The notes beneath the pieces are model-generated. The model ran no database searches, was not told where the DNA came from, and saw nothing but the letters and a program-made list of their open reading frames with translations. From assembly GCA_016841965.1 (NCBI GenBank), contig JAEANN010000006.1, positions 1-40,213 on the forward strand: DNA of 40,213 nucleotides. The letters run 5' to 3'. Shown here in pieces: positions 841 to 36,082 of this stretch. The translations under genes and the position numbers were made by a program. Numbering within the stretch: position 1 is the first letter of the stretch; every line of letters begins with the position of its first letter. The stretch is from Candidatus Roseilinea mizusawaensis. GTDB taxonomy: Bacteria; Chloroflexota; Anaerolineae; J036; Brachytrichaceae.

Positions 841-1842
841 ATGGCAAGACCGGTTACGCTTTTCACAGGGCAGTGGGCGGACTTGACGCTCGACAAAGTG
901 GCCGAAAAGGCCCGCTCGTTCGGTTACGATGGACTGGAGCTGGCGTGTTGGGGCGATCATTTTGATGTCTCGCGCGCGCTCAGCGAAGATGGCTATGTTC
1001 AGTCGCGCTGGGACATTTTGAACAAATATGGTCTGCAGTGCTTTGCGATTAGCACCCACCTGGTAGGGCAGGCAGTGTGCGATGTGATCGACGAGCGGCA
1101 CAAAGCGATTCTGCCGCCGCACGTGTGGGGCGACGGCAAGCCCGAAGGCGTGAACCGCCGCGCAGCGGAGGAAGTTGCCAACACGGCGCGCGCCGCGGAA
1201 AAGTTCGGCGTGAAAGTGGTCAACGGTTTCACCGGCTCAAGCATCTGGCGTTACGTGTACTCGTTCCCGCCAGTCTCGCCGGAGATGATCGACGCCGGTT
1301 ACCGCGAGTTTGCCGATCGCTGGAATCCCATTCTGGATGTGTTCGACCAAGCCGGCGTGAAGTTCGGCCTCGAGGTGCACCCGACCGAAATCGCTTTCGA
1401 CATTGCTTCGGCCGAACGTGCGTTGCAGGCGCTGAACCACCGCCCGGCATTTGGCTTCAACTACGACCCGTCGCACTTTGGCTATCAGGGCGTGGACTAT
1501 GTCGGCTTCATTCGCAAATTCCGTGACCGCATCTATCACGTGCACATGAAGGATGTGGGCTGGAGCAGTGTGCCCACACAAGCCGGCGTGTTCGGCGGGC
1601 ATGTCGCTTTCGGCGACTCGCGCCGTTACTGGGACTTCCGCTCGCTGGGCCGGGGCAAGATCAATTTCGAGGAAATCATCCGCGCGCTCAACGAGATCGG
1701 CTATAACGGCCCGCTTTCGGTGGAGTGGGAAGACAGCGGCATGGACCGCGAGCATGGCGCCACCGAGGCCGCTGCCTTCGTCAAGCGCATCGACTTCAAA
1801 CCCAGTGCTGTGGCGTTCGACGCGGCGTTTGAGAGGAAGTAG
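841..1842 (+). CDS. Sugar phosphate isomerase/epimerase (AP-endonuclease-2 type TIM barrel)
   Basis: A 333-residue cytosolic protein of the xylose-isomerase-like TIM-barrel family, which interconverts sugars or sugar phosphates with a divalent metal. Visible family marks are the early strand ending [14 protein letters not shown], the central GLEVHPTE with a metal-ligand Glu and His, the [12 protein letters not shown] segment with Asp and His, the HVHMKD segment, and the late [10 protein letters not shown] Glu. Length is near the upper family range. I chose ATG 841 because AAAGGAG (826-832) lies 8 nt upstream; a GTG at 832 overlaps that site. A truncated four-helix gene and then a Gfo/Idh/MocA dehydrogenase follow on the same strand, a common pairing in inositol or unusual-sugar catabolism. 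The exact substrate cannot be read from the sequence. Confidence 0.92.
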
Positions 1843-1876
1843 ACGAACAGACGACAGACGACAGATGACAGACCCG
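1841..1876 (+). repeat. Short heptamer array (AGACGAC type)
   Basis: Starting inside the isomerase stop codon, the sequence repeats the 7-mer AGACGAC and variants: AGACGAA at 1841, AGACGAC at 1849 and 1856, AGATGAC at 1863, AGACCCG at 1870, with one extra base after the first unit. It directly precedes the start region of the four-helix-bundle gene and forms the left border of that gene's insertion between two operon-like neighbours. Confidence 0.75.
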
Positions 1877-1886
1877 GGAGTGAGCG

Positions 1887-2117
1887 ATGCACAATTATCG
1901 TCAGTTGAAAGTGTGGCAGCGCAGTCTGGCATTTGCGCTCAGAGTGTATCGTGAGGCTGCCGAGCACTTTCCTGCTGACGAACGTTTTGGTTTGACCAGT
2001 CAAATCTGCCGGGCTGCCGGTTCTATTCCCATGAATATCGCCGAAGGGTCGGGCAATAGCTCGAACAAAGAGTTTTGCCGATATCTGGATATGGCGAAGC
2101 GATCTGGTGAACTCTGA
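1887..2117 (+). CDS. Truncated four-helix-bundle protein (S23/IVP family)
   Basis: The 76 residues match the start of the four-helix-bundle family known from 23S rRNA intervening-sequence ORFs: the opening HNYRQLKVWQ, then GLTSQICRAAGSIPMNIAEGSGNSSNKEF. Family members are usually about 115-130 residues. Here translation stops at SGEL, where a GSxxELE helix should begin, because the sequence passes into a CTCTGAA heptamer array that supplies TGA. The last helix or so is therefore missing. GGGAG (1876-1880) lies 6 nt before ATG 1887, so it could still be translated. The gene sits between co-directional sugar genes with heptamer arrays on both sides, which suggests an insertion that was later eroded. 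Family function is poorly known; some relatives (Avd) assist diversity-generating retroelements, but no reverse transcriptase is present here. Confidence 0.85.
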   Translation: MHNYRQLKVWQRSLAFALRVYREAAEHFPADERFGLTSQICRAAGSIPMNIAEGSGNSSNKEFCRYLDMAKRSGEL

Positions 2118-2270
2118 ACTCTGAACTCTGTACTCTGTACTCTGAACTCTGTACTCTGAACTCTGAACTCTGAACTCTGAACTCTGAACTCTGTACTCTG
2201 TACTCTGAACTCTGAACTCTGTACTCTGTACTCTGTACTCTGTACTCTGTACTCTGTGCTCTGTGCTCTC
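2110..2270 (+). repeat. Heptamer tandem array, 23 copies (AACTCTG/TACTCTG)
   Basis: Exactly 161 bp, 23 contiguous 7-mers. Most are AACTCTG or TACTCTG, mixed without strict order; the last two drift to TGCTCTG and TGCTCTC. The first unit overlaps the 3' end of the truncated four-helix gene and supplies its stop codon. The last unit ends one base before the GGAGG ribosome site (2272-2276) of the next gene. Because 7 is not a multiple of 3, all frames read the array as repeating peptides; none is a credible gene. Confidence 0.97.
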
Positions 2271-2281
2271 TGGAGGATTCA

Positions 2282-3478
2282 ATGAGCGACCCTAAAGTTG
2301 GATTTGTGACAATGGCCGGCCCGAAAGCCGAAGGAACCGCGCCGACCGTGGGCGTGGGCATGTTGGGCTATGCGTTTATGGGCAAAGCGCACTCGAACGC
2401 CCTGAAGAAGCTGCCGTACATGATGTACCCGCCGCCGGCTATTCCCCGCCTGGTGGCCATCGCCGGCCGCAATCAGGACGCGGTGCAAGAGGCCGCCCGG
2501 CGCTATGGGTACGAGAAAGCCTATACCGACTGGCGCCAGATGATGGACGACCCGGACGTGCAAGTGTTCGTCAACAACGGCCCCAACAACGTGCACCTCG
2601 AGCCGAATGTGGCGGCCGCCAAAGCCGGCAAGCACATCATGAGCGAGAAGCCGCTGGGCCGCACGGCCGCCGAATGCAAGGAGATGTGGGACGCGGTGGT
2701 CAAGGCCGGCGTCAAGCATCAGGTCGCTTTCAACTATCGCTTCGTGCCGGCGGTGCGCCTGGTGCGCCAACTGATCGAGCAGGGCAAGCTCGGCCGCATC
2801 TATCACTTCCGCGCCACGTATCTGCAAGAGTGGATTGCCGACCCCGATTTCCCGATGGTGTGGCGGCTCGACCAGTCGGTGGCCGGCAGCGGCACGATCG
2901 GCGACCTCGGTTCGCACATCATCGACCTGGCGCGTTACCTGGTCGGCGAGCCGAAGAGCGTGATGGCGCGCACCGAAACCTTCATTCCCGAGCGCAAGAA
3001 CGCCGAGGGCAAAGTTGAGAAGGTCACCGTGGACGATGCCTTCCAGGCCATCATCGAGTATGAAGGCGGCGCAGTGGGCACGTTGGAAGCCTCGCGTTTC
3101 TGCCCCGGCCGCAAAAACTTCAACACCTTCGAGATTAACGCCGAGCACGGCAGCATCCGCTTCAATCTTGAGGCGATCAACGAACTCGAAGTGTTCTGGA
3201 AGCACGGCGCAGTGGACAAAGACACGATGGGGTTCACCAAAGTGCTGGTGTCCGAGTCCTATCATCCGTGGTGGGGCAACTGGTGGCCGCAGGGCCACTT
3301 CATCGGGTGGGAGCATACCTTCGTCCACGAGTGGGATCACTTCCTGCGCGCCGTGGTGAAGGGCGACCCAGTGACGCCGCACGGGCCGGACTTCGAGGAT
3401 GGCTACAAGAACGCGGTGATCTGCGACGCGATTGTGGCGTCGGCCCAGTCGCGCCGACAGGTAGATATCAAGTACTAA
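2282..3478 (+). CDS. Gfo/Idh/MocA family oxidoreductase
   Basis: A 398-residue NAD(P)-dependent sugar or inositol-type dehydrogenase. The Rossmann motif GVGMLGYAFMG is at about residues 22-32, followed by the family motif SEKPLGRT near 121-128. The catalytic-domain signature lies in the stretch with NYRFVPAVRL, GKLGRIYHFRATY and GTIGDLGSHIIDLARYLVGE, whose His in GSHIIDLAR is the usual catalytic-region residue. GGAGG at 2272-2276 sits 5 nt before ATG 2282 and fixes the start. Together with the isomerase upstream it probably oxidises and isomerises the same sugar. The region between them holds the truncated four-helix gene and a 23-copy heptamer array. A hairpin with a weak T-rich tail follows at 3517. 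Confidence 0.93.
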   Translation: MSDPKVGFVTMAGPKAEGTAPTVGVGMLGYAFMGKAHSNALKKLPYMMYPPPAIPRLVAIAGRNQDAVQEAARRYGYEKAYTDWRQMMDDPDVQVFVNNGPNNVHLEPNVAAAKAGKHIMSEKPLGRTAAECKEMWDAVVKAGVKHQVAFNYRFVPAVRLVRQLIEQGKLGRIYHFRATYLQEWIADPDFPMVWRLDQSVAGSGTIGDLGSHIIDLARYLVGEPKSVMARTETFIPERKNAEGKVEKVTVDDAFQAIIEYEGGAVGTLEASRFCPGRKNFNTFEINAEHGSIRFNLEAINELEVFWKHGAVDKDTMGFTKVLVSESYHPWWGNWWPQGHFIGWEHTFVHEWDHFLRAVVKGDPVTPHGPDFEDGYKNAVICDAIVASAQSRRQVDIKY

Positions 3479-26310: not shown

Positions 26311-26844
26311 ATGTCATTCCGCGATTACCTTCGGCGTCTCGACGCGCACGGCAATCTCACGCGTGTGCGGACGCCCATCTCCAAAATCCACGAGATTGCC
26401 GGCGTGCTAAAGAAGATCGAGCCGCGCCCGGCGCTGTTCGAGCAGGTGATCGAAGCGCCCTTTTGTGTGGCTGGCATCACCCCAGCGAGCCGTGAGACCG
26501 CGCGTCTCGATGTCAGCACTGCCGCGCGCGTCGACGCAGAGCCGCCCTCGTTGGCGGCGATCAATCAATCGCTCACAATGGCGTTGTCGCGCGTGAATAG
26601 CGATCTGATCAACATGTTTTCGTCGGCGACGCAGGTCTTTGACAGCCGGCCGCCATCGCCCACAATCGTGGCGTTGAAAGATACGGCTGGCAGCGTCCGC
26701 GAAGCGCTGGCCGACTGGTCGAGCGCGTCTGTCAGTAGCGACAGCGGTTGGAGCAGCGCATCTGACTCAGGCTCCAGCAGTTGGAGCGGCGGCGGCAGTT
26801 CGAGCGGGGGAAGTTCGGGCAGCGGCGGGGGCGGATTTGGTTAG
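26311..26844 (+). CDS. Chimeric ORF: UbiD N-terminal fragment joined to a DUF2207-like Ser/Gly tail
   Basis: A 177-residue ORF in two parts. Residues 1 to about 60 (MSFRDYLRRLDAHGNLTRV, then PISKIHEIAGVLKKIEPRPALFEQV and an SRE end) match the start of UbiD-family decarboxylases, which are normally about 450 residues or more; the prenyl-FMN site is absent. The rest includes VNSDLINMFSSATQVF and a Ser/Gly run ending GGGGFG, closely like the tails of the two DUF2207 proteins at 29572 and 31561 (INSGLTAMFSSVASTF ... GGGGFG). It could be a recombination remnant or a new small protein. It is convergent with menA, its stop overlapping by 3 bp. There is no Shine-Dalgarno. Confidence 0.75.
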   Translation: MSFRDYLRRLDAHGNLTRVRTPISKIHEIAGVLKKIEPRPALFEQVIEAPFCVAGITPASRETARLDVSTAARVDAEPPSLAAINQSLTMALSRVNSDLINMFSSATQVFDSRPPSPTIVALKDTAGSVREALADWSSASVSSDSGWSSASDSGSSSWSGGGSSSGGSSGSGGGGFG

Positions 26845-29571: not shown

Positions 29572-31431
29572 ATGCGCGTGGACATCAAAAGGTGGAGCCG
29601 GCCGCTGTGGGGTGTGCTGGTGGTGGGCGCCGTGTTCCTTGCTTTCCTGATATTCGTCGCAGCGGATTCTTCTGTCCAAGCCGAAACCAAGACGCTGGAA
29701 TGGATGCGCCTGGACACTGAGATCACGGTGCTGCCCAACGGCGATCTGCGCATTGTGGAGACGAATGTGATCGACTTCACGAGCGGCACGTTCACGTTCG
29801 GCTATCGGGATATCGATCAGTCGCGCTTGACGGGCATTGTGGATGTGCTGGTGACGGAGCAAGGGCGCGCGCTGCCGGTTGAGCTTTCGCAAACCGACGA
29901 AGGCTATTTTCGCATCCGCTATGAATTCGAGCCGGCCCGGCAAGAGCGGCGCGTGTTCACGGTGGAGTACACCGTGCAGGGCGCGACGCGCTACTACGAC
30001 GATGGGGATGAAGTGTTCTGGGCCGGCGTGTACGCCGATCGCAACGGCTTTGCAGTGCAGGCTGCGCAGCTGACGGTGCGATTGCCCGACGGCGCAAGCG
30101 CGCTCGACGCGCAGACGTATGGCCCGCGCGCCGAGGTGACGGGGCAGGGCGAAAACGTCGTTGTGGCCGAGGCGCTGGAGCCGATTGCCAGTGGCGATCA
30201 ATTCGAGATTTGGGTCAAGTTTCCGCACGGCGTGATTGCGGGATCGCCGCCGCCCTGGCAGGCCGGCTACGATCGCCAGCGCGAATACGAACGGACGCTG
30301 AAGCCGGTGGTTGATCTGGGGGTGTTGTTGCTGGCCGGCTTGGTGCTGGCCGGTGGTGTGCCGGCGGCAATTGTGCTGTGGTATCGGCGCGGGCGAGACC
30401 CGCAGGTGGCCAGCGTCGCCGAGTATCTGAGCGAACCGCCGGCCGGTCTGTCTCCGGGGCTGGCCGGCGCGTTACTCGACGAGAAGGCCGATCTGCGCGA
30501 CATCGTCGCCACGCTGGTCGATCTGTGCCGGCGCGGTGTGCTGCGCATGCGTGAAGAACAGACCCCTGGCCTGTTTGGTATCGGCACGATCCGCGACTGG
30601 GTGTTCGAGCGCGGGCCGCAGTTCACCAAACAACTGGCGCAACACGAGCGGGAGCTGATTCGCGCGCTCGATCTGGACACGCAAGACAGCGTCTCCCTGT
30701 CTAGCCTTAAGGATGTTTTCTACAAGAGCGTCCCCGGCATTCAGTCGGCGTTGTACGAGCAACTGGTGACCGCCGGCTACTATGACCATCGGCCCGACAA
30801 GGTGCGCAATCGCTTCATGCTGATGGGCATTGTGGTGCTGGTCATCGGCGTCGGCAGTGTCATCATCACCGGCCTGTTGGCCGCTGAGGGAATCACCTCG
30901 ACCGGGATTGCGCTGAGCGTGGCGAGTGCCATTGTCGGCGCCGTGCTGGCGGTTGTGGGCGCCAACATGCCGGTGCGCACACGCAAGGGCGCCGAGATGC
31001 GCCAGCGCGTGGACGCATTCAAGCGCTATCTCGACGCCATCGAGCGCTACGTAGACCTGAAAGCCGCCACCGACCAGTTTGATCGCTATTTGCCCTTTGC
31101 GGTCGCCTTTGGCATTGACCGTAGCTGGATGCGCAAGTTCGCGGCTGCCGACACGCCGGCGCCGACATGGTACGTGCCGCATCTGCGGTCGGTTTCCGTG
31201 GGCCGGGGCGCTGGCGACTCGGGTTCGAGTGTGGCCGGGGCGGCCAAAGCGCCATCGGGAGGGATCGCGGGCGCCAATGCCGGCCTGACCTCCGGCCTGG
31301 CCGGCATGAATGCCGGGTTGACGGCCATGATGTCGTCGGTGGCGTCTACCTTCTCCAGTTCGCCGTCGTCCAGCAGCGGTGGTGGCGGCGGCGGCGGAAG
31401 CTCGGGCGGCGGAGGCGGTGGCTTCGGTTAG
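29572..31431 (+). CDS. DUF2207 membrane protein, first paralogue
   Basis: A 619-residue membrane protein of the DUF2207 family (function unknown). Order: N-terminal hydrophobic segment (13-31), an extracytoplasmic beta-rich DUF2207 domain (about 40-235: MRLDTEITVLPNGDLRIVET, FGYRDIDQSRL, VYADRNGF), a helix at 247-271, a cytosolic segment (ADLRDIVATLVDLCRRGVLRM, winged-helix-like), two helices (415-436, 441-463), a conserved MPVRTRKGAEMR and FDRYLPFAVAFGIDRSWM region, and a Gly/Ser tail (from about 545) ending GGGGGGFG. AAGGAG (29556-29561) is 10 nt before ATG 29572; an earlier ATG at 29524 lacks a site. First gene of a five-gene module. Confidence 0.92.
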   Translation: MRVDIKRWSRPLWGVLVVGAVFLAFLIFVAADSSVQAETKTLEWMRLDTEITVLPNGDLRIVETNVIDFTSGTFTFGYRDIDQSRLTGIVDVLVTEQGRALPVELSQTDEGYFRIRYEFEPARQERRVFTVEYTVQGATRYYDDGDEVFWAGVYADRNGFAVQAAQLTVRLPDGASALDAQTYGPRAEVTGQGENVVVAEALEPIASGDQFEIWVKFPHGVIAGSPPPWQAGYDRQREYERTLKPVVDLGVLLLAGLVLAGGVPAAIVLWYRRGRDPQVASVAEYLSEPPAGLSPGLAGALLDEKADLRDIVATLVDLCRRGVLRMREEQTPGLFGIGTIRDWVFERGPQFTKQLAQHERELIRALDLDTQDSVSLSSLKDVFYKSVPGIQSALYEQLVTAGYYDHRPDKVRNRFMLMGIVVLVIGVGSVIITGLLAAEGITSTGIALSVASAIVGAVLAVVGANMPVRTRKGAEMRQRVDAFKRYLDAIERYVDLKAATDQFDRYLPFAVAFGIDRSWMRKFAAADTPAPTWYVPHLRSVSVGRGAGDSGSSVAGAAKAPSGGIAGANAGLTSGLAGMNAGLTAMMSSVASTFSSSPSSSSGGGGGGGSSGGGGGGFG

Positions 31432-31560
31432 GTGTCAGGCGATCCGTGTGGGACTGTCAGAATCGCCGCCTGAATCGCTTTACAATGATTGCATCTGGCT
31501 GGCGTGCGTCGCGCAAAGTGCGCCAGCCTTGTTTATTGGCTTTTGGCAAAGAGGGAGTCA

Positions 31561-33483
31561 ATGGGATCTCAAGTTGACCGTGCGCGGAGATATCGTGGCC
31601 GGGCGCTGGCGTTGTTCGCGCTGGCGGCCTTGTTCCTTGCGGGGTTGGCGGCGTCGCCTGCCGCCGCCCAGGCCAAGACGTTGCAATGGCAGCGCCTCGA
31701 CACGGACATCACCGTGCTGCTGAATGGCGATCTGGAGATCGTCGAGACAAACGTCATTCACTTCATCAGCGGCTCTTTCTCGTTTGGCTACCGCGATATT
31801 GATCTGTCGCGCTTGGAAGCGGTCGAGAATATACAGGTAACCGATGACACCGGTCAGCGATTGCGTGTTGAGCGAACCACCGATGGCAGCGTCTTGCGCA
31901 TCAAATATTATTTCCCCCTGGCGTCGCGCGAGACGCGCACGTTCAGGCTGCGCTATACGGTTCGCGGCGCGGTGCGGTACTACGCGGAGGGTGACCAGGT
32001 GTACTGGGCCGGCGTGTACGCCGACCGCAATGGCTTCTCGGTGGAATCGGCGCGCATCACGGTGCGGTTGCCCGAGGGCGCCACGGCCACAATCGCCGAT
32101 GCCTATGGGCCGCAGGCGCGCGTGACAGGCCAGGGCGAAAGCCTGGTTGTCGCCGAAGCATTGAGCCCCATTCCCAGCGGCCAGGAGTTTGAAATCCGGG
32201 TGCAGTTTCCGCACGGCATCGTGCAGGGGCAGCCGTCGGCCTGGCAGGCCGAGTTTGATCGGCAACGCGAGTTTGAAGAGACGGTCAAACCCGGCATTAA
32301 CCTGGTTGTGCTGTTGATATCGCTGGCGATGTTGTTTGATGGGCCGGCATTGGCGGTGGTGTTGTGGTACACGCGCGGGCGTGACCCGAACGTAGGGTTG
32401 ATTGCTGACTACTTGAACGAGCCGCCGGCCGGCATCACGCCGGGCGTGGCCGGCACGCTGGTCGATGAGCAGGCCGACCTGCGCGATGTCATTGCCACGC
32501 TGGTCGATCTGGCCCGGCGCGGCATTGTCGTGATGGAGGAGCAGGGCAAGCCCAACCGGGCCGGCTTGCTAACGGGCCGGGACTGGGTTTTCTCGCGCGG
32601 GCCGGAGTTCGGCAGCGCGCTGGCGCCGCACGAGCAAAAGCTGATCGAGGCGTTGGGGTTGACCCAGAAAGACAGCGTGTCGTTGTCGGCCATGCGCAAT
32701 CGCTTCTACACGAAGATACCCGGCATCAACGATGCGCTGTACAGCCAATTGGTGGCGGGCGGATATTATCAGCGCCGGCCCGATCAGGTGCGCGGCGCTT
32801 ACGCAAGCCTGGCCTCTACGCTGATGGTGTTGACATTTGTTGTGGGCTGCCTTGCTTTGACCGTTCTGGTTGACCTCGCCGATACTGCCATTCTCCTGCC
32901 GATAGGTCTTGCAGTGACGACGTTGGCATTCTTGATCGTGTCCGGTCAGATGCCGGTGCGCACCCGCAAAGGCGCTGAGGCCAGGATGCGGTTGGAGGCG
33001 TTCAAGCGCTATCTGCAGAACATCGAGAAGTACACGAACGTTCAGGCGGCTACCGAGCAGTTCGAGAAGTATCTGCCCTACGCGATCGCATTTGGGCTGG
33101 ATCGGACGTGGATCTCGAAATTCGCCGCTGTGGACACGCCGGCGCCGACGTGGTATGTGCCGTATGGCCGGCCGCGTTCCTACGGGCCGCGCGGGCCGGC
33201 GGGACTGGCCGGCGCGAGTCAATCCGCGCTTGGTGATATTAGTGGCGCGGCAAGCGCCGGCGGCGGTCTGGGCGGACTCGATCGTGGCCTGAGCCAGGGC
33301 CTGTCGAACATCAATTCGGGGCTGACTGCCATGTTTTCATCCGTGGCCAGCACATTTGTGAGCACGCCGGCGCCGCCACCGGGCAGCAGTTCTGGGCGAT
33401 CCGGGAGCAGTGGCCGAGGCTGGAGCGGGGGCGGCAGTCTTGGCGGCGGCAGTTCGGGCCGCGGCGGTGGCGGCTTTGGCTAA
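31561..33483 (+). CDS. DUF2207 membrane protein, second paralogue
   Basis: A 640-residue close paralogue of the preceding protein, alike along its full length: signal peptide ending near residue 38 (ASPAAAQA), the same LDTDITVLLNGDLEIVET and FGYRDIDLSRL openings, VYADRNGF, the same membrane helices, MPVRTRKGAEAR, FEKYLPYAIAFGLDRTWI, and a tail with INSGLTAMFSSVASTF ending GGGGFG. The tail is longer and Arg/Trp-spiked (SGRSGSSGRGWSGGG). ATG 31561 follows GAGGGAG (31551-31557) closely. It clearly arose by tandem duplication. A candidate -10 TACAAT at 31481 lies in the 129-bp spacer but has no matching -35. Confidence 0.92.
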   Translation: MGSQVDRARRYRGRALALFALAALFLAGLAASPAAAQAKTLQWQRLDTDITVLLNGDLEIVETNVIHFISGSFSFGYRDIDLSRLEAVENIQVTDDTGQRLRVERTTDGSVLRIKYYFPLASRETRTFRLRYTVRGAVRYYAEGDQVYWAGVYADRNGFSVESARITVRLPEGATATIADAYGPQARVTGQGESLVVAEALSPIPSGQEFEIRVQFPHGIVQGQPSAWQAEFDRQREFEETVKPGINLVVLLISLAMLFDGPALAVVLWYTRGRDPNVGLIADYLNEPPAGITPGVAGTLVDEQADLRDVIATLVDLARRGIVVMEEQGKPNRAGLLTGRDWVFSRGPEFGSALAPHEQKLIEALGLTQKDSVSLSAMRNRFYTKIPGINDALYSQLVAGGYYQRRPDQVRGAYASLASTLMVLTFVVGCLALTVLVDLADTAILLPIGLAVTTLAFLIVSGQMPVRTRKGAEARMRLEAFKRYLQNIEKYTNVQAATEQFEKYLPYAIAFGLDRTWISKFAAVDTPAPTWYVPYGRPRSYGPRGPAGLAGASQSALGDISGAASAGGGLGGLDRGLSQGLSNINSGLTAMFSSVASTFVSTPAPPPGSSSGRSGSSGRGWSGGGSLGGGSSGRGGGGFG

Positions 33484-33506
33484 ATCAACACACACACGAG
33501 GAATCT

Positions 33507-34025
33507 ATGAATCAGGGTAAAACGCTCGGCTTGATTCTGACAGGTATCGGCGCCGCTGTTCTGGCGATCGTTGTGTTATGGGCGTTGGTGAACAACGATC
33601 CGGCGATGACAGCATCGGCAAAGGTGCTGGCCGTGTTCTTTGGGTTGCTGATCTCTGCGCCATTGCTGGGATTTGGCATTTATACGCTGAACAAGGGGCG
33701 CGCAGAGGCCGGAGAAGAGAGGGTGATTGCCAGACAGCGCAAGTTGCTCAACATGGTGATGACGCGCGGGCAGGTCAACATCCCCGAGGCCACGCTTGAG
33801 TTGCAGGCGACGCGCGACGAAGCGCGGCATCTCATCTATGACCTGATTGGCAAAGAGCTGTTCAGCGGCTATGTCGATTGGGAGGGGGGTGTGCTATATT
33901 CGTCAGACGCAGGCAAACTCAAGGAGGGTGGCCGGTGCCCCAAGTGCGGCGGCAAGCTTCAGTTGGCCGGTAAGGGGTTGGTCAAGTGTCCATACTGTGG
34001 CACAGAGATTTTCTTGTCGCAGTGA
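33507..34025 (+). CDS. Membrane protein with winged-helix-like and zinc-ribbon domains
   Basis: A 172-residue protein with two membrane helices (7-28 and 38-60), a segment that looks like a winged helix (about 72-132: RKLLNMVMTRGQVNIPEATLEL, EARHLIYDLIGKELFSGYVDWE with a GGVLYS wing), and a C-terminal zinc ribbon whose ligands are Cys144, Cys147, Cys161 and Cys164 (CPKCGG and CPYCGT). The cytosolic face would carry the last two domains. No named family is assigned. GAGGA precedes ATG 33507. It is 23 bp after the second DUF2207 gene and belongs to the module; a linker between the membrane proteins and soluble partners is an inference. Confidence 0.85.
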   Translation: MNQGKTLGLILTGIGAAVLAIVVLWALVNNDPAMTASAKVLAVFFGLLISAPLLGFGIYTLNKGRAEAGEERVIARQRKLLNMVMTRGQVNIPEATLELQATRDEARHLIYDLIGKELFSGYVDWEGGVLYSSDAGKLKEGGRCPKCGGKLQLAGKGLVKCPYCGTEIFLSQ

Positions 34026-34103
34026 TATCCGATATGGCGGTCGGCCGTCAGCTTATCAACTGATTGCTGCCTGCTCGGTTGAAACCATACCTGGAGGTTG
34101 AAC

Positions 34104-34622
34104 GTGAGCTCGAACTATGAACGGATTTCCGAAGAGCGCGGGTGGCTGGAAAAGCTGATCGGCAAGATTCCCGGCTACAAGGGCTACAAAGAAAAAGAAA
34201 TGCGCCGCGAGGCAGACCGGCTCTTGCGCGAAGCCCTGGTGCGCGATCTGACCTTGCAGCTCAACCGGCTGGCTCCGATGCAGACGGCCTTGCTGGAGCA
34301 GGGTGGCATCGACTGGATGGACGACATCGGCGCCGTAAAGACATCTTTGCAGACCCTGATCGATCGGGTACGGCACGCCGCCCAGGGATACGCCGGCTTC
34401 TTCGACGCTGTGCGGGTCAAAGAAGATGACCTAGACCGGCTGGAACAGTTCGATCAGCAACTGGTCGCCGAGTTGGAGCGTATCACAGCTTCATTCGATG
34501 CGCTAGAGAGCGCCATCGGGTCCGGCGCAGAAATCAGGTCGAGCATCGCTGCGTCGCGCAAGCTGATTCAAGGAATCAACGATCTATTCAGCAAGCGGAG
34601 CAGTGTCATTACGGGAATGTAG
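34104..34622 (+). CDS. Hypothetical helical protein of the SPFH module
   Basis: A 172-residue, mostly alpha-helical soluble protein with no named family. The N-terminus has ERGWLEKLIGKIPGYKGYKEKEMRREADRLLREAL, then helical stretches with LTLQLNRLAPMQTALLEQG, LQTLIDRVRHAAQGYAGFFDAVRV and FDQQLVAELERITASFDALESAI; coiled-coil pairing is likely. GTG 34104 is chosen because GGAGG (34093-34097) lies 6 nt upstream; the TTG at 34098 overlaps that site. It sits between the zinc-ribbon and SPFH genes, which suggests it acts with the SPFH protein, perhaps as a PspA-like scaffold; that is a hypothesis. Confidence 0.8.
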   Translation: MSSNYERISEERGWLEKLIGKIPGYKGYKEKEMRREADRLLREALVRDLTLQLNRLAPMQTALLEQGGIDWMDDIGAVKTSLQTLIDRVRHAAQGYAGFFDAVRVKEDDLDRLEQFDQQLVAELERITASFDALESAIGSGAEIRSSIAASRKLIQGINDLFSKRSSVITGM

Positions 34623-34679
34623 TTGGTTGTTGGCCGACTGGCCTAATGGCTGGCGCTAACTTTTAAGGAGAATCAAATC

Positions 34680-35711
34680 ATGCCACGGCTTATCGACGTA
34701 ATTGAATGGCCAGATCAGGGGCCAAATGAGATCGTTCGTCGCGTGCCGGATCAAGGACAGGGCGATATTCGTCTGGGGTCGCAGGTGATTGTGCGCGGCG
34801 CGCAGGTTGCTGTGTTCTACCGTGACGGCAAAGCGCTGGACGCATTCAAAGAAGGCCGGCATACCTTGTCAACGGCCAACCTGCCGCTGCTCAGCAGCTT
34901 GATCGGGCTGGCAACCAACAGCAAGACGCCGTTTCCCGCCGAAGTGTACTTTGTCACCACCAAGGACTTCCTGGACATGAAATGGGGCACGCCGGGCGAA
35001 CTGACCGTGCCGGACAGTGTGCTGGGCATGGTGCAGTTGCGCGCTTTTGGCACGTACTCGATGGCGATCAGCGACCCGATTCGATTTGTGAATCAGGTGG
35101 TTGGCGTGCAGGGCATCTATACCACTGCCCAGATCAATGATTATCTGCGCGGCATCATGCTGAGCGAGATTGCTAGTGTGATCGGCAATGTGATGAAGAC
35201 ACGCTCGTTGCTCGATCTGGCTGCCCTCCAGGCAGACCTGGGCGCGGCGATTCAGGCCAAGGCCGCGGACGACTTTGAAGCGATCGGGATTCAACTGAAG
35301 AAAGTCTATGTTGTGCAGGTGCAGCCCGGCGAGGAAACTGCCAAGGCGATCGCCCAGCGCAGCGCGATGGGCGCGCTGGGCGTGAACTATATGCAGTATC
35401 AAGCCGGCCAGGCGATGCGCGAAGCAGCCCAGAACGAAAGCGGCGGGGTGGCCGGCGCCGGTGTCGGCCTGGGCGCCGGGATCGGACTGGGGCAGGTGCT
35501 TGGCCAGGCTGTTGCGGCCGGCATGACACAGCCGGCGCCGGCTCAGCCACAGCAACCCCAACAGCCTGCGGCCAACGTGCAGACCAAAGCGCAGATTCGC
35601 GCTGCAATGACCAATCTAGACGTGCGCTTGGCCAACGGAGAAATCAGCGAAGCCACGTATAACCGGCTGTACGAGAACCTGACCAAGGCGCTGGAGACTG
35701 CGCCGGAATAG
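34680..35711 (+). CDS. SPFH domain protein with C-terminal SHOCT-like motif (YdjI-like)
   Basis: A 343-residue protein. Residues about 30-215 are an SPFH (stomatin/flotillin-like) domain of the branch often labelled virion-core-like: LGSQVIVRGAQVAVFYRDGKALDAFKEGRHTLSTANLPLL, FPAEVYFVTTKDFLDMKWGTP, GTYSMAISDPIRFVNQV, and DDFEAIGIQLKKVYVVQV. No membrane helix is present. Then come a Gly/Ala-rich segment (245-280), a Pro/Gln linker (283-298) and a SHOCT-like end (305-335: NLDVRLANGEISEATYNRLYENL). AAGGAG precedes ATG 34680. It closes the module before a strong terminator. B. subtilis YdjI is a soluble SPFH protein held at the membrane by partners, a fair comparison. Confidence 0.92.
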   Translation: MPRLIDVIEWPDQGPNEIVRRVPDQGQGDIRLGSQVIVRGAQVAVFYRDGKALDAFKEGRHTLSTANLPLLSSLIGLATNSKTPFPAEVYFVTTKDFLDMKWGTPGELTVPDSVLGMVQLRAFGTYSMAISDPIRFVNQVVGVQGIYTTAQINDYLRGIMLSEIASVIGNVMKTRSLLDLAALQADLGAAIQAKAADDFEAIGIQLKKVYVVQVQPGEETAKAIAQRSAMGALGVNYMQYQAGQAMREAAQNESGGVAGAGVGLGAGIGLGQVLGQAVAAGMTQPAPAQPQQPQQPAANVQTKAQIRAAMTNLDVRLANGEISEATYNRLYENLTKALETAPE

Positions 35712-35740: not shown

Positions 35741-35784
35741 ATGCGCGGCGCAATCCGAAAATTGCGCCGCGGCGCATTTTCTTC
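35741..35784 (+). terminator. Rho-independent terminator after the SPFH gene
   Basis: GCGGCGCAAT (35745-35754) and ATTGCGCCGC (35761-35770) form a perfect 10-bp stem with a 6-nt loop. Outer ATGCGC/GCGCAT bases can add to it with a bulge, and TTTTCTT follows. It separates the DUF2207-SPFH module from the str operon. Confidence 0.9.
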
Positions 35785-35802
35785 CCCGGATGGCATGACT
35801 TG

Positions 35803-35924: not shown

Positions 35925-35952
35925 TTGACAAAAGAGAGGCTTTTGGTACAAT
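35925..35952 (+). promoter_or_regulatory. Strong promoter of the str operon
   Basis: TTGACA (35925-35930), a perfect -35, and TACAAT (35947-35952) preceded by TGG as an extended -10 are 16 bp apart. Start is predicted near 35959. The 10-bp palindrome GCGAATTCGC (35903-35912) lies just upstream. The leader to ATG 36083 is about 124 nt and holds a 12-bp hairpin. Confidence 0.88.
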
Positions 35953-36008
35953 CCGCAAGCTAACCGCTCGAACAAGGCGCGTGCGCGCTAGCAATAACTG
36001 AATCAAAT

Positions 36009-36039
36009 GAAGAGGCTACTGGGTGTCAGTAGCCTCTTC
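36009..36039 (+). promoter_or_regulatory. 12-bp leader hairpin upstream of rpsL
   Basis: GAAGAGGCTACT (36009-36020) pairs perfectly with AGTAGCCTCTTC (36028-36039) around GGGTGTC. It lies within the predicted str leader, 43 bp before rpsL. It is followed by TGTCGCC rather than a U-run, so a regulatory leader fold is more likely than a classical attenuator. Confidence 0.75.
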
Positions 36040-36082
36040 TGTCGCCTGATGAACAGTGATTCATTAGTCAAGAGATCAAAAT

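Follow-up and report, generated by a model that had tools for sequence, protein, structure and literature searches.

Introduction

Which clients bacterial SPFH proteins serve, and which partners define each kind of them, are largely open questions. In Bacillus subtilis, the SPFH protein YdjI has no transmembrane (TM) segment, needs the membrane proteins YdjG and YdjH for its localisation at the membrane, and in turn localises PspA (PMC8581546). YdjG carries two zinc ribbons, an NTF2-like domain and a TM segment, and YdjH a TPM domain (PMC11237479). An SPFH protein is likewise accompanied by a membrane partner in the NfeD-stomatin(-PspA) operons (PMC2636767). Proteins in which Band_7_1, the commonest companion of SHOCT, is combined with a SHOCT domain resemble in architecture the SPFH protein analysed here, the C-terminus of which is SHOCT-like; the accessible part of the source (PMC3581485) describes no operon partners for them. 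The DUF2207 family, to which two of the proteins described here belong, also includes YciQ of Escherichia coli and SMU.243 of Streptococcus mutans, for which SPFH or HEL neighbours have not been described. Mutation of the S. mutans DUF2207 gene causes defects in stress tolerance and biofilm formation, and susceptibility to cell-wall and membrane antimicrobials is unchanged without the protein (PMC10457818).

The locus described here consists of two tight gene pairs, HEL-SPFH and DUF2207-ZR, which are often joined, and it supplies concrete partner predictions for an SPFH protein. The reading preferred here, tentatively and at a little under an even chance, is that a HEL-SPFH scaffold would be anchored and signalled to by the DUF2207-ZR pair; the linkage of the genes is observed, and the function is inferred.

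Layout of the locus and comparison with described systems

The window (the whole stretch of DNA analysed, 40,213 nucleotides) is a 40-kb contig of a 3.86 Mb genome of the Chloroflexota, the nearest named relatives of which are Anaerolineae/Thermoflexales MAGs. All five genes named in the initial annotation were found at 29572-35711 in one direction (+ strand), with intergenic gaps from D1 to SPFH of 129, 23, 78 (counted to the GTG of HEL) and 57 bp. The features were as follows:

26551-26844, + strand: remnant tail of a third DUF2207 gene, fused in frame with a UbiD_N-like ORF through a deletion
29572-31431, + strand: D1, DUF2207 membrane protein (domain matches, hydropathy)
31476-31487, + strand: -10-like block CGCTTTACAATG in the D1-D2 gap, possible internal promoter
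31561-33483, + strand: D2, second DUF2207 protein (domain matches, AF2 model)
33507-34025, + strand: ZR, with two TM segments, a winged helix and a C-terminal zinc ribbon
34104-34622, + strand: HEL, soluble helical protein of 172 aa with GTG start (listed ORF from TTG 34098)
34680-35711, + strand: SPFH, Band_7_1 (YdjI-type) with Gly-rich linker and SHOCT-like C-terminus
35743-35790, + strand: intrinsic-terminator-like hairpin (35743-35771) and T-rich run

The locus is flanked on its 5' side by divergent UbiA-type, glyoxalase-like and alpha/beta hydrolase genes and on its 3' side by rpsL-rpsG-fusA, which stand behind a promoter-like site of their own. The domains first assigned to the five genes were recovered for both DUF2207 proteins, the winged-helix/zinc-ribbon protein, the helical protein and the SPFH protein, but not in full for SHOCT, the match to which lies below the cut-off (E 0.021).

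As in pspA-ydjGHI (PMC8581546, PMC11237479), a TM-less Band_7_1 SPFH protein is combined with two membrane proteins, one of them with a zinc ribbon, and a soluble helical protein. However, SPFH is the sole homologous part and the gene order is different. YdjI ends in a zinc ribbon, whereas the SPFH protein of the window ends SHOCT-like; ZR differs from YdjG in having two TM segments, a winged helix and one CxxC...CxxC ribbon at the C-terminus, and is not classed as a YdjG. The operon in the window holds no PspA, no TPM protein (PF04536) and no LemA partners were found in the whole genome, and the single PF04012 (PspA) match of the genome lies on another contig (contig 31). Because only SPFH is homologous, TPM is absent and PspA is encoded elsewhere, the locus is placed outside the B. 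subtilis PspA-YdjGHI system; the resemblance to YdjGHI that had been pointed out initially holds for the SPFH family, its lack of a TM segment and the set of roles, but not for homology of the remaining parts. No description of a system of this exact composition was found in the literature searched, in agreement with the initial annotation.

On contig 31 (L074, 4070-7478), PspA, an unassigned 276-aa protein, NfeD and a Band_7 stomatin are encoded consecutively. This row is a separate PspA-SPFH operon, so the same genome holds an operon of the NfeD-stomatin kind, in which both the SPFH subfamily and the partner differ from those of the window.

HEL

The listed ORF of HEL starts at TTG 34098, with GGAGG immediately 5' of it. 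On the grounds of ribosome-binding-site spacing and of orthologue starts, GTG 34104 is most likely the true start. HEL matched no Pfam family. Its one clear relative was NCBIfam LIMLP_15305, known from Leptospira (E 8e-12, 45.4 bits vs a cut-off of 210 bits), of which HEL appears from this profile match to be a distant homologue standing outside the defined family. The HEL family is marked by the motif PGYKGYKEKExRREAD and by a second block around 92-101.

The AF2 model of HEL is a helical bundle (pLDDT 81) with predicted helices of 41, 22, 34 and 20 residues. Conservation is highest at residues 21-40 and 81-110 (mean 0.73-0.86), and the conserved blocks mostly overlap less confident parts of the model (confidence values 57-77 and 61-63; residues 81-90 are confident), which fits a surface that folds on an obligate partner; in the model, the conserved segments thus look like a partner-binding surface. 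A Foldseek search with the model gave no match at E 0.001, and helical bundles yield uninformative Z values. The top rows of the fold search were IncA and designed bundles. Searches of solved structures with the HEL and SPFH profiles returned nothing usable. Weak matches between HEL and PspAA (E 0.08) were discounted as evidence.

HEL might be a functional replacement of PspA, that is, an ESCRT-III-like or analogous remodeller recruited by SPFH and the membrane proteins, and the locus accordingly a diverged YdjGHI/Psp system. The layout of roles equals that of pspA-ydjG-ydjH-ydjI, including a membrane protein with an ectodomain and a low-complexity tail (PMC8581546, PMC11237479); HEL stands in the place of PspA beside an SPFH protein of the Band_7_1 family, and the LIMLP_15305 model has no match in B. 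subtilis. Against this, a search for PspA_IM30, and so for a PspA/ESCRT-III protein, gave no match among the window proteins (for HEL, at E up to 10), no PspA entry was present among the fold matches listed for its four helices, which is not proof, and no clear amphipathic helix was recognised at the N-terminus. A real PspA is moreover encoded elsewhere in the genome with its own NfeD and stomatin. Since HEL has no detectable sequence relationship to PspA and a true PspA exists elsewhere, a PspA-like role is possible by analogy only, and replacement of PspA is considered unlikely. An anchored HEL-SPFH scaffold is preferred.

Survey of gene neighbourhoods

Co-occurrence was examined in three steps. 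Sixty relatives were searched with HEL (45 positive), 40 loci were fetched, and the order DUF2207-ZR-HEL-SPFH was seen to recur among them. Eighty loci were subsequently chosen by HEL alone, with SPFH disregarded; an SPFH gene followed HEL in 80/80, at a median gap of 32 bp and at no more than 150 bp in 77. Finally, the identical 110 Anaerolineae genomes were searched for each family and the results compared, strong Band_7_1 matches being counted as SPFH.

HEL and SPFH occurred together in 87 of the 110 genomes (HEL only 3, SPFH only 0, neither 20) and lay side by side on the same strand in 80 of the 87. HEL is therefore a near-obligate partner of the SPFH gene, which was never seen without it in this class-wide sample and stands here beside a membrane pair that includes the widespread DUF2207. 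DUF2207_C and ZR were both present in 74 genomes (DUF2207 only 8, ZR only 2, neither 26), adjacent in 56 of these. All four families were clustered as DUF2207-ZR-HEL-SPFH in 41/110 genomes. Conserved gene order, tested across the class, thus exceeds chance. The Fisher p-values, uncorrected for phylogeny, were 4e-19 for HEL/SPFH, 5e-16 for DUF2207/ZR and 8e-5 for HEL/ZR; because they ignore shared ancestry and incomplete assemblies, the counts and not the p-values are taken as the evidence. Loci may also be interrupted or wrongly joined in MAG assemblies, and genomes that are related do not count as independent samples.

The two pairs could be unrelated systems that are neighbours through inherited gene order. 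DUF2207-ZR is paired yet stands apart from HEL in 13 genomes, ZR is missing from 20 HEL genomes, and a YccF protein, a THEP1-type NTPase or a DUF433/DUF5615 pair can replace or split the pairs. Of the genomes with HEL, about 20% have no DUF2207 or no ZR, so that the DUF2207-ZR pair is dispensable in some genomes. On the other hand, HEL and ZR are same-strand neighbours in 60 of the 70 genomes that have both, which belong to many families, and the presence of the two is associated (the HEL/ZR value above). Mere neighbourhood is accordingly judged unlikely, and a functional connection between the HEL-SPFH and DUF2207-ZR pairs is tentatively retained. Of the five-gene module proposed in the initial annotation, the co-conservation and synteny of the families stand, with four of them clustering, but the unit of five genes does not: the real unit is the two pairs, and the second DUF2207 gene is lineage-specific.

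Several insertions and neighbours were recorded alongside. In nine loci, among them L100, L104, L118, L133, L051, L065 and L070, the gene of a membrane protein carrying two YccF domains has been inserted just upstream of HEL. In loci without DUF2207-ZR (L113, L116, L120, L128, L142, L149, L154), a THEP1-type NTPase gene (PF03266) lies upstream of HEL, next to it or close by. A toxin-antitoxin-like DUF433/DUF5615 pair, or one member of it, lies amid DUF2207, ZR and HEL in L090-L092 and L096. HEL-SPFH is often convergent to a cluster of the recurrent gene families c4 and c5 (12 loci each; fabG- and plsX-like by eye), for example in L106, L116, L119, L127 and L137.

SPFH and ZR

The SPFH protein matches Band_7_1 (PF13421, E 1.6e-52), the Pfam family of YdjI, for which a match was also obtained in B. 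subtilis, and itself lacks a TM segment. Its C-terminus scored 15 bits with SHOCT (PF09851) at a cut-off of 27 bits, and SHOCT was found at E <=0.01 in 4 of 38 SPFH relatives; as the match lies under the cut-off, "SHOCT-like" is the proper label. The SPFH core is conserved as far as the Gly-rich stretch, beyond which the C-terminus varies: among the 38 members, HTH_17 was found in 13, GYF_2 in four and zinc ribbons in three, besides SHOCT-like ends. On a tree of the core (58 rows; 23 rows were left out, the HTH rule being too narrow), the four C-terminal types need 8 changes, against a minimum of 3 and a shuffled mean of 24.8, so the C-terminus has been swapped several times, though the swaps are clustered. 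Excisionase-like HTH_17 ends are seen, for instance, in L100, L105, L111 and L126.

ZR relatives match PCI/HTH models, with PCI in 23 of 25 members. From the TM count and charge, the winged helix and zinc ribbon of ZR are inferred to be cytoplasmic. Together with the HTH_17 ends of 13/38 SPFH members, the winged-helix/PCI matches would suit a membrane-tethered regulator, in which ZR and those SPFH forms that end in HTH_17 would bind DNA, with transcription under the control of the scaffold at the membrane. PCI-type winged helices, however, are frequently protein-binding, and the SPFH protein of the window carries no HTH at its SHOCT-like C-terminus, which is exchangeable; such regulation is thought very unlikely. 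The HEL-SPFH scaffold with its DUF2207-ZR anchor is retained as the preferred reading.

DUF2207 proteins

D1 and D2 (54% overall identity) match both PF09972 and PF20990 above the cut-off; the N-terminal DUF2207 matches have E 1.5e-14 (D1) and 4.4e-18 (D2), the DUF2207_C matches E 2e-42 and 2.5e-39. D1 is composed of an N-terminal TM/signal segment, an ectodomain, a TM segment, DUF2207_C with a TM hairpin, and a Gly-rich tail ending in GGGGFG. Each protein clusters with its own orthologues from two further species of the genus, so that the duplication is older than the genus, with D1 as the upstream copy. Tandem DUF2207 copies in L069 and L096 look independent. In the sister species L033 a third DUF2207 gene is intact (1268-3412, 714-aa ORF), and in the window it is reduced to a tail within an in-frame chimera with the UbiD_N-like ORF (26311-26844).

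By hydropathy and its AF2 model, D2 consists of a signal/TM segment, a beta-sandwich (40-216), a TM segment, a winged-helix-like cytoplasmic part, a TM hairpin and a disordered linker of about 100 residues, followed by a docked C-terminal strand (pLDDT 83). The modelled ectodomain resembles Ost1/ribophorin I (6ezn_A; Z 15.8, 175 aligned, rmsd 2.5) and, in second place, the N-domain of M1 aminopeptidase (Z 12.7); in the prediction, the DUF2207 ectodomain folds like the second lumenal domain of Ost1. As in those proteins, a TM segment follows, but an OST context is lacking. Sequence homology to ribophorin I was unconfirmed in 30 DUF2207 members: one of the 30 matched PF04597 (E 0.16) in the region of the structural match, and chance families score equally. 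With an ectodomain-only profile, no match was obtained among PDB sequences; the matches of the full-length profile to the PDB were Gly linkers only and were rejected. TM count and charge would put the ectodomain outside and the tail inside.

New in these results are the repeated swaps of the SPFH C-terminus, the ribophorin I/M1-N-like ectodomain model and the candidate interface of HEL, the Band_7_1-SHOCT combination being already known. As DUF2207 is present in model organisms (YciQ, SMU.243), the fold and the partner hypothesis can be tested there.

Proposed mechanism

The locus would be a chromosomal membrane-scaffold module of two functional pairs. At its core would stand the TM-less SPFH protein, which presumably forms oligomers at the cytoplasmic membrane face, and its near-obligate soluble partner HEL, while DUF2207 and ZR would form the membrane part. 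The DUF2207 beta-sandwich ectodomain could sense or bind something outside the membrane, and the winged-helix-like domain and Gly-rich tail of DUF2207, with the winged helix/zinc ribbon of ZR, could dock or release SPFH-HEL. Through its C-terminal module (SHOCT-like here; HTH_17, GYF_2 or a zinc ribbon elsewhere), SPFH might recruit lineage-specific clients. The physiological role is likely the maintenance of the envelope under stress. A role of the locus in defence against phages or bacteriocins, for which a link of the SPFH protein YqfA to toxic-peptide resistance might speak (cited in PMC2636767), is highly improbable, given that HEL is present in 90/110 genomes of the class and stands here beside rpsL-rpsG-fusA, that a search of plasmids and viral contigs found no HEL, and that no PADLOC family matched.

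The presence, in a little-studied group of the Chloroflexota, of a YdjI-type SPFH protein with HEL and often with DUF2207-ZR suggests a membrane-stress scaffold without PspA. A bolder proposal, which we put forward with some doubt, is that HEL is the first member of an undescribed class of obligate adaptors for SPFH, belonging to PspA-independent YdjI-type scaffolds of the Anaerolineae with DUF2207-ZR as receptor (ribophorin-like ectodomain) and exchangeable client modules on SPFH.

Regulation and flanking sequences

The terminator initially reported behind SPFH was recovered: the hairpin, with its T-rich run next to it, folds better than shuffled sequences (z -2.6), and compensating changes preserve the stem in one sister species (L033). 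Terminator-like sites are not enriched over the region (9 found vs 7.7 expected). Within the D1-D2 gap, the core CGCTTTACAA of the -10-like block is shared by the three species of the genus, while the remainder of the gap has diverged among them; D2 may therefore own a separate promoter, and D1 may stand apart from the rest.

The stretch before rpsL (35925-36050) contains a strong promoter-like site (TTGACA-16-TACAAT), as well as a 13-bp hairpin without mismatches (z -6.6). An Rfam search for leader RNAs, this hairpin included, gave no match; site and hairpin are highly conserved in the three species and may represent a ribosomal-protein leader.
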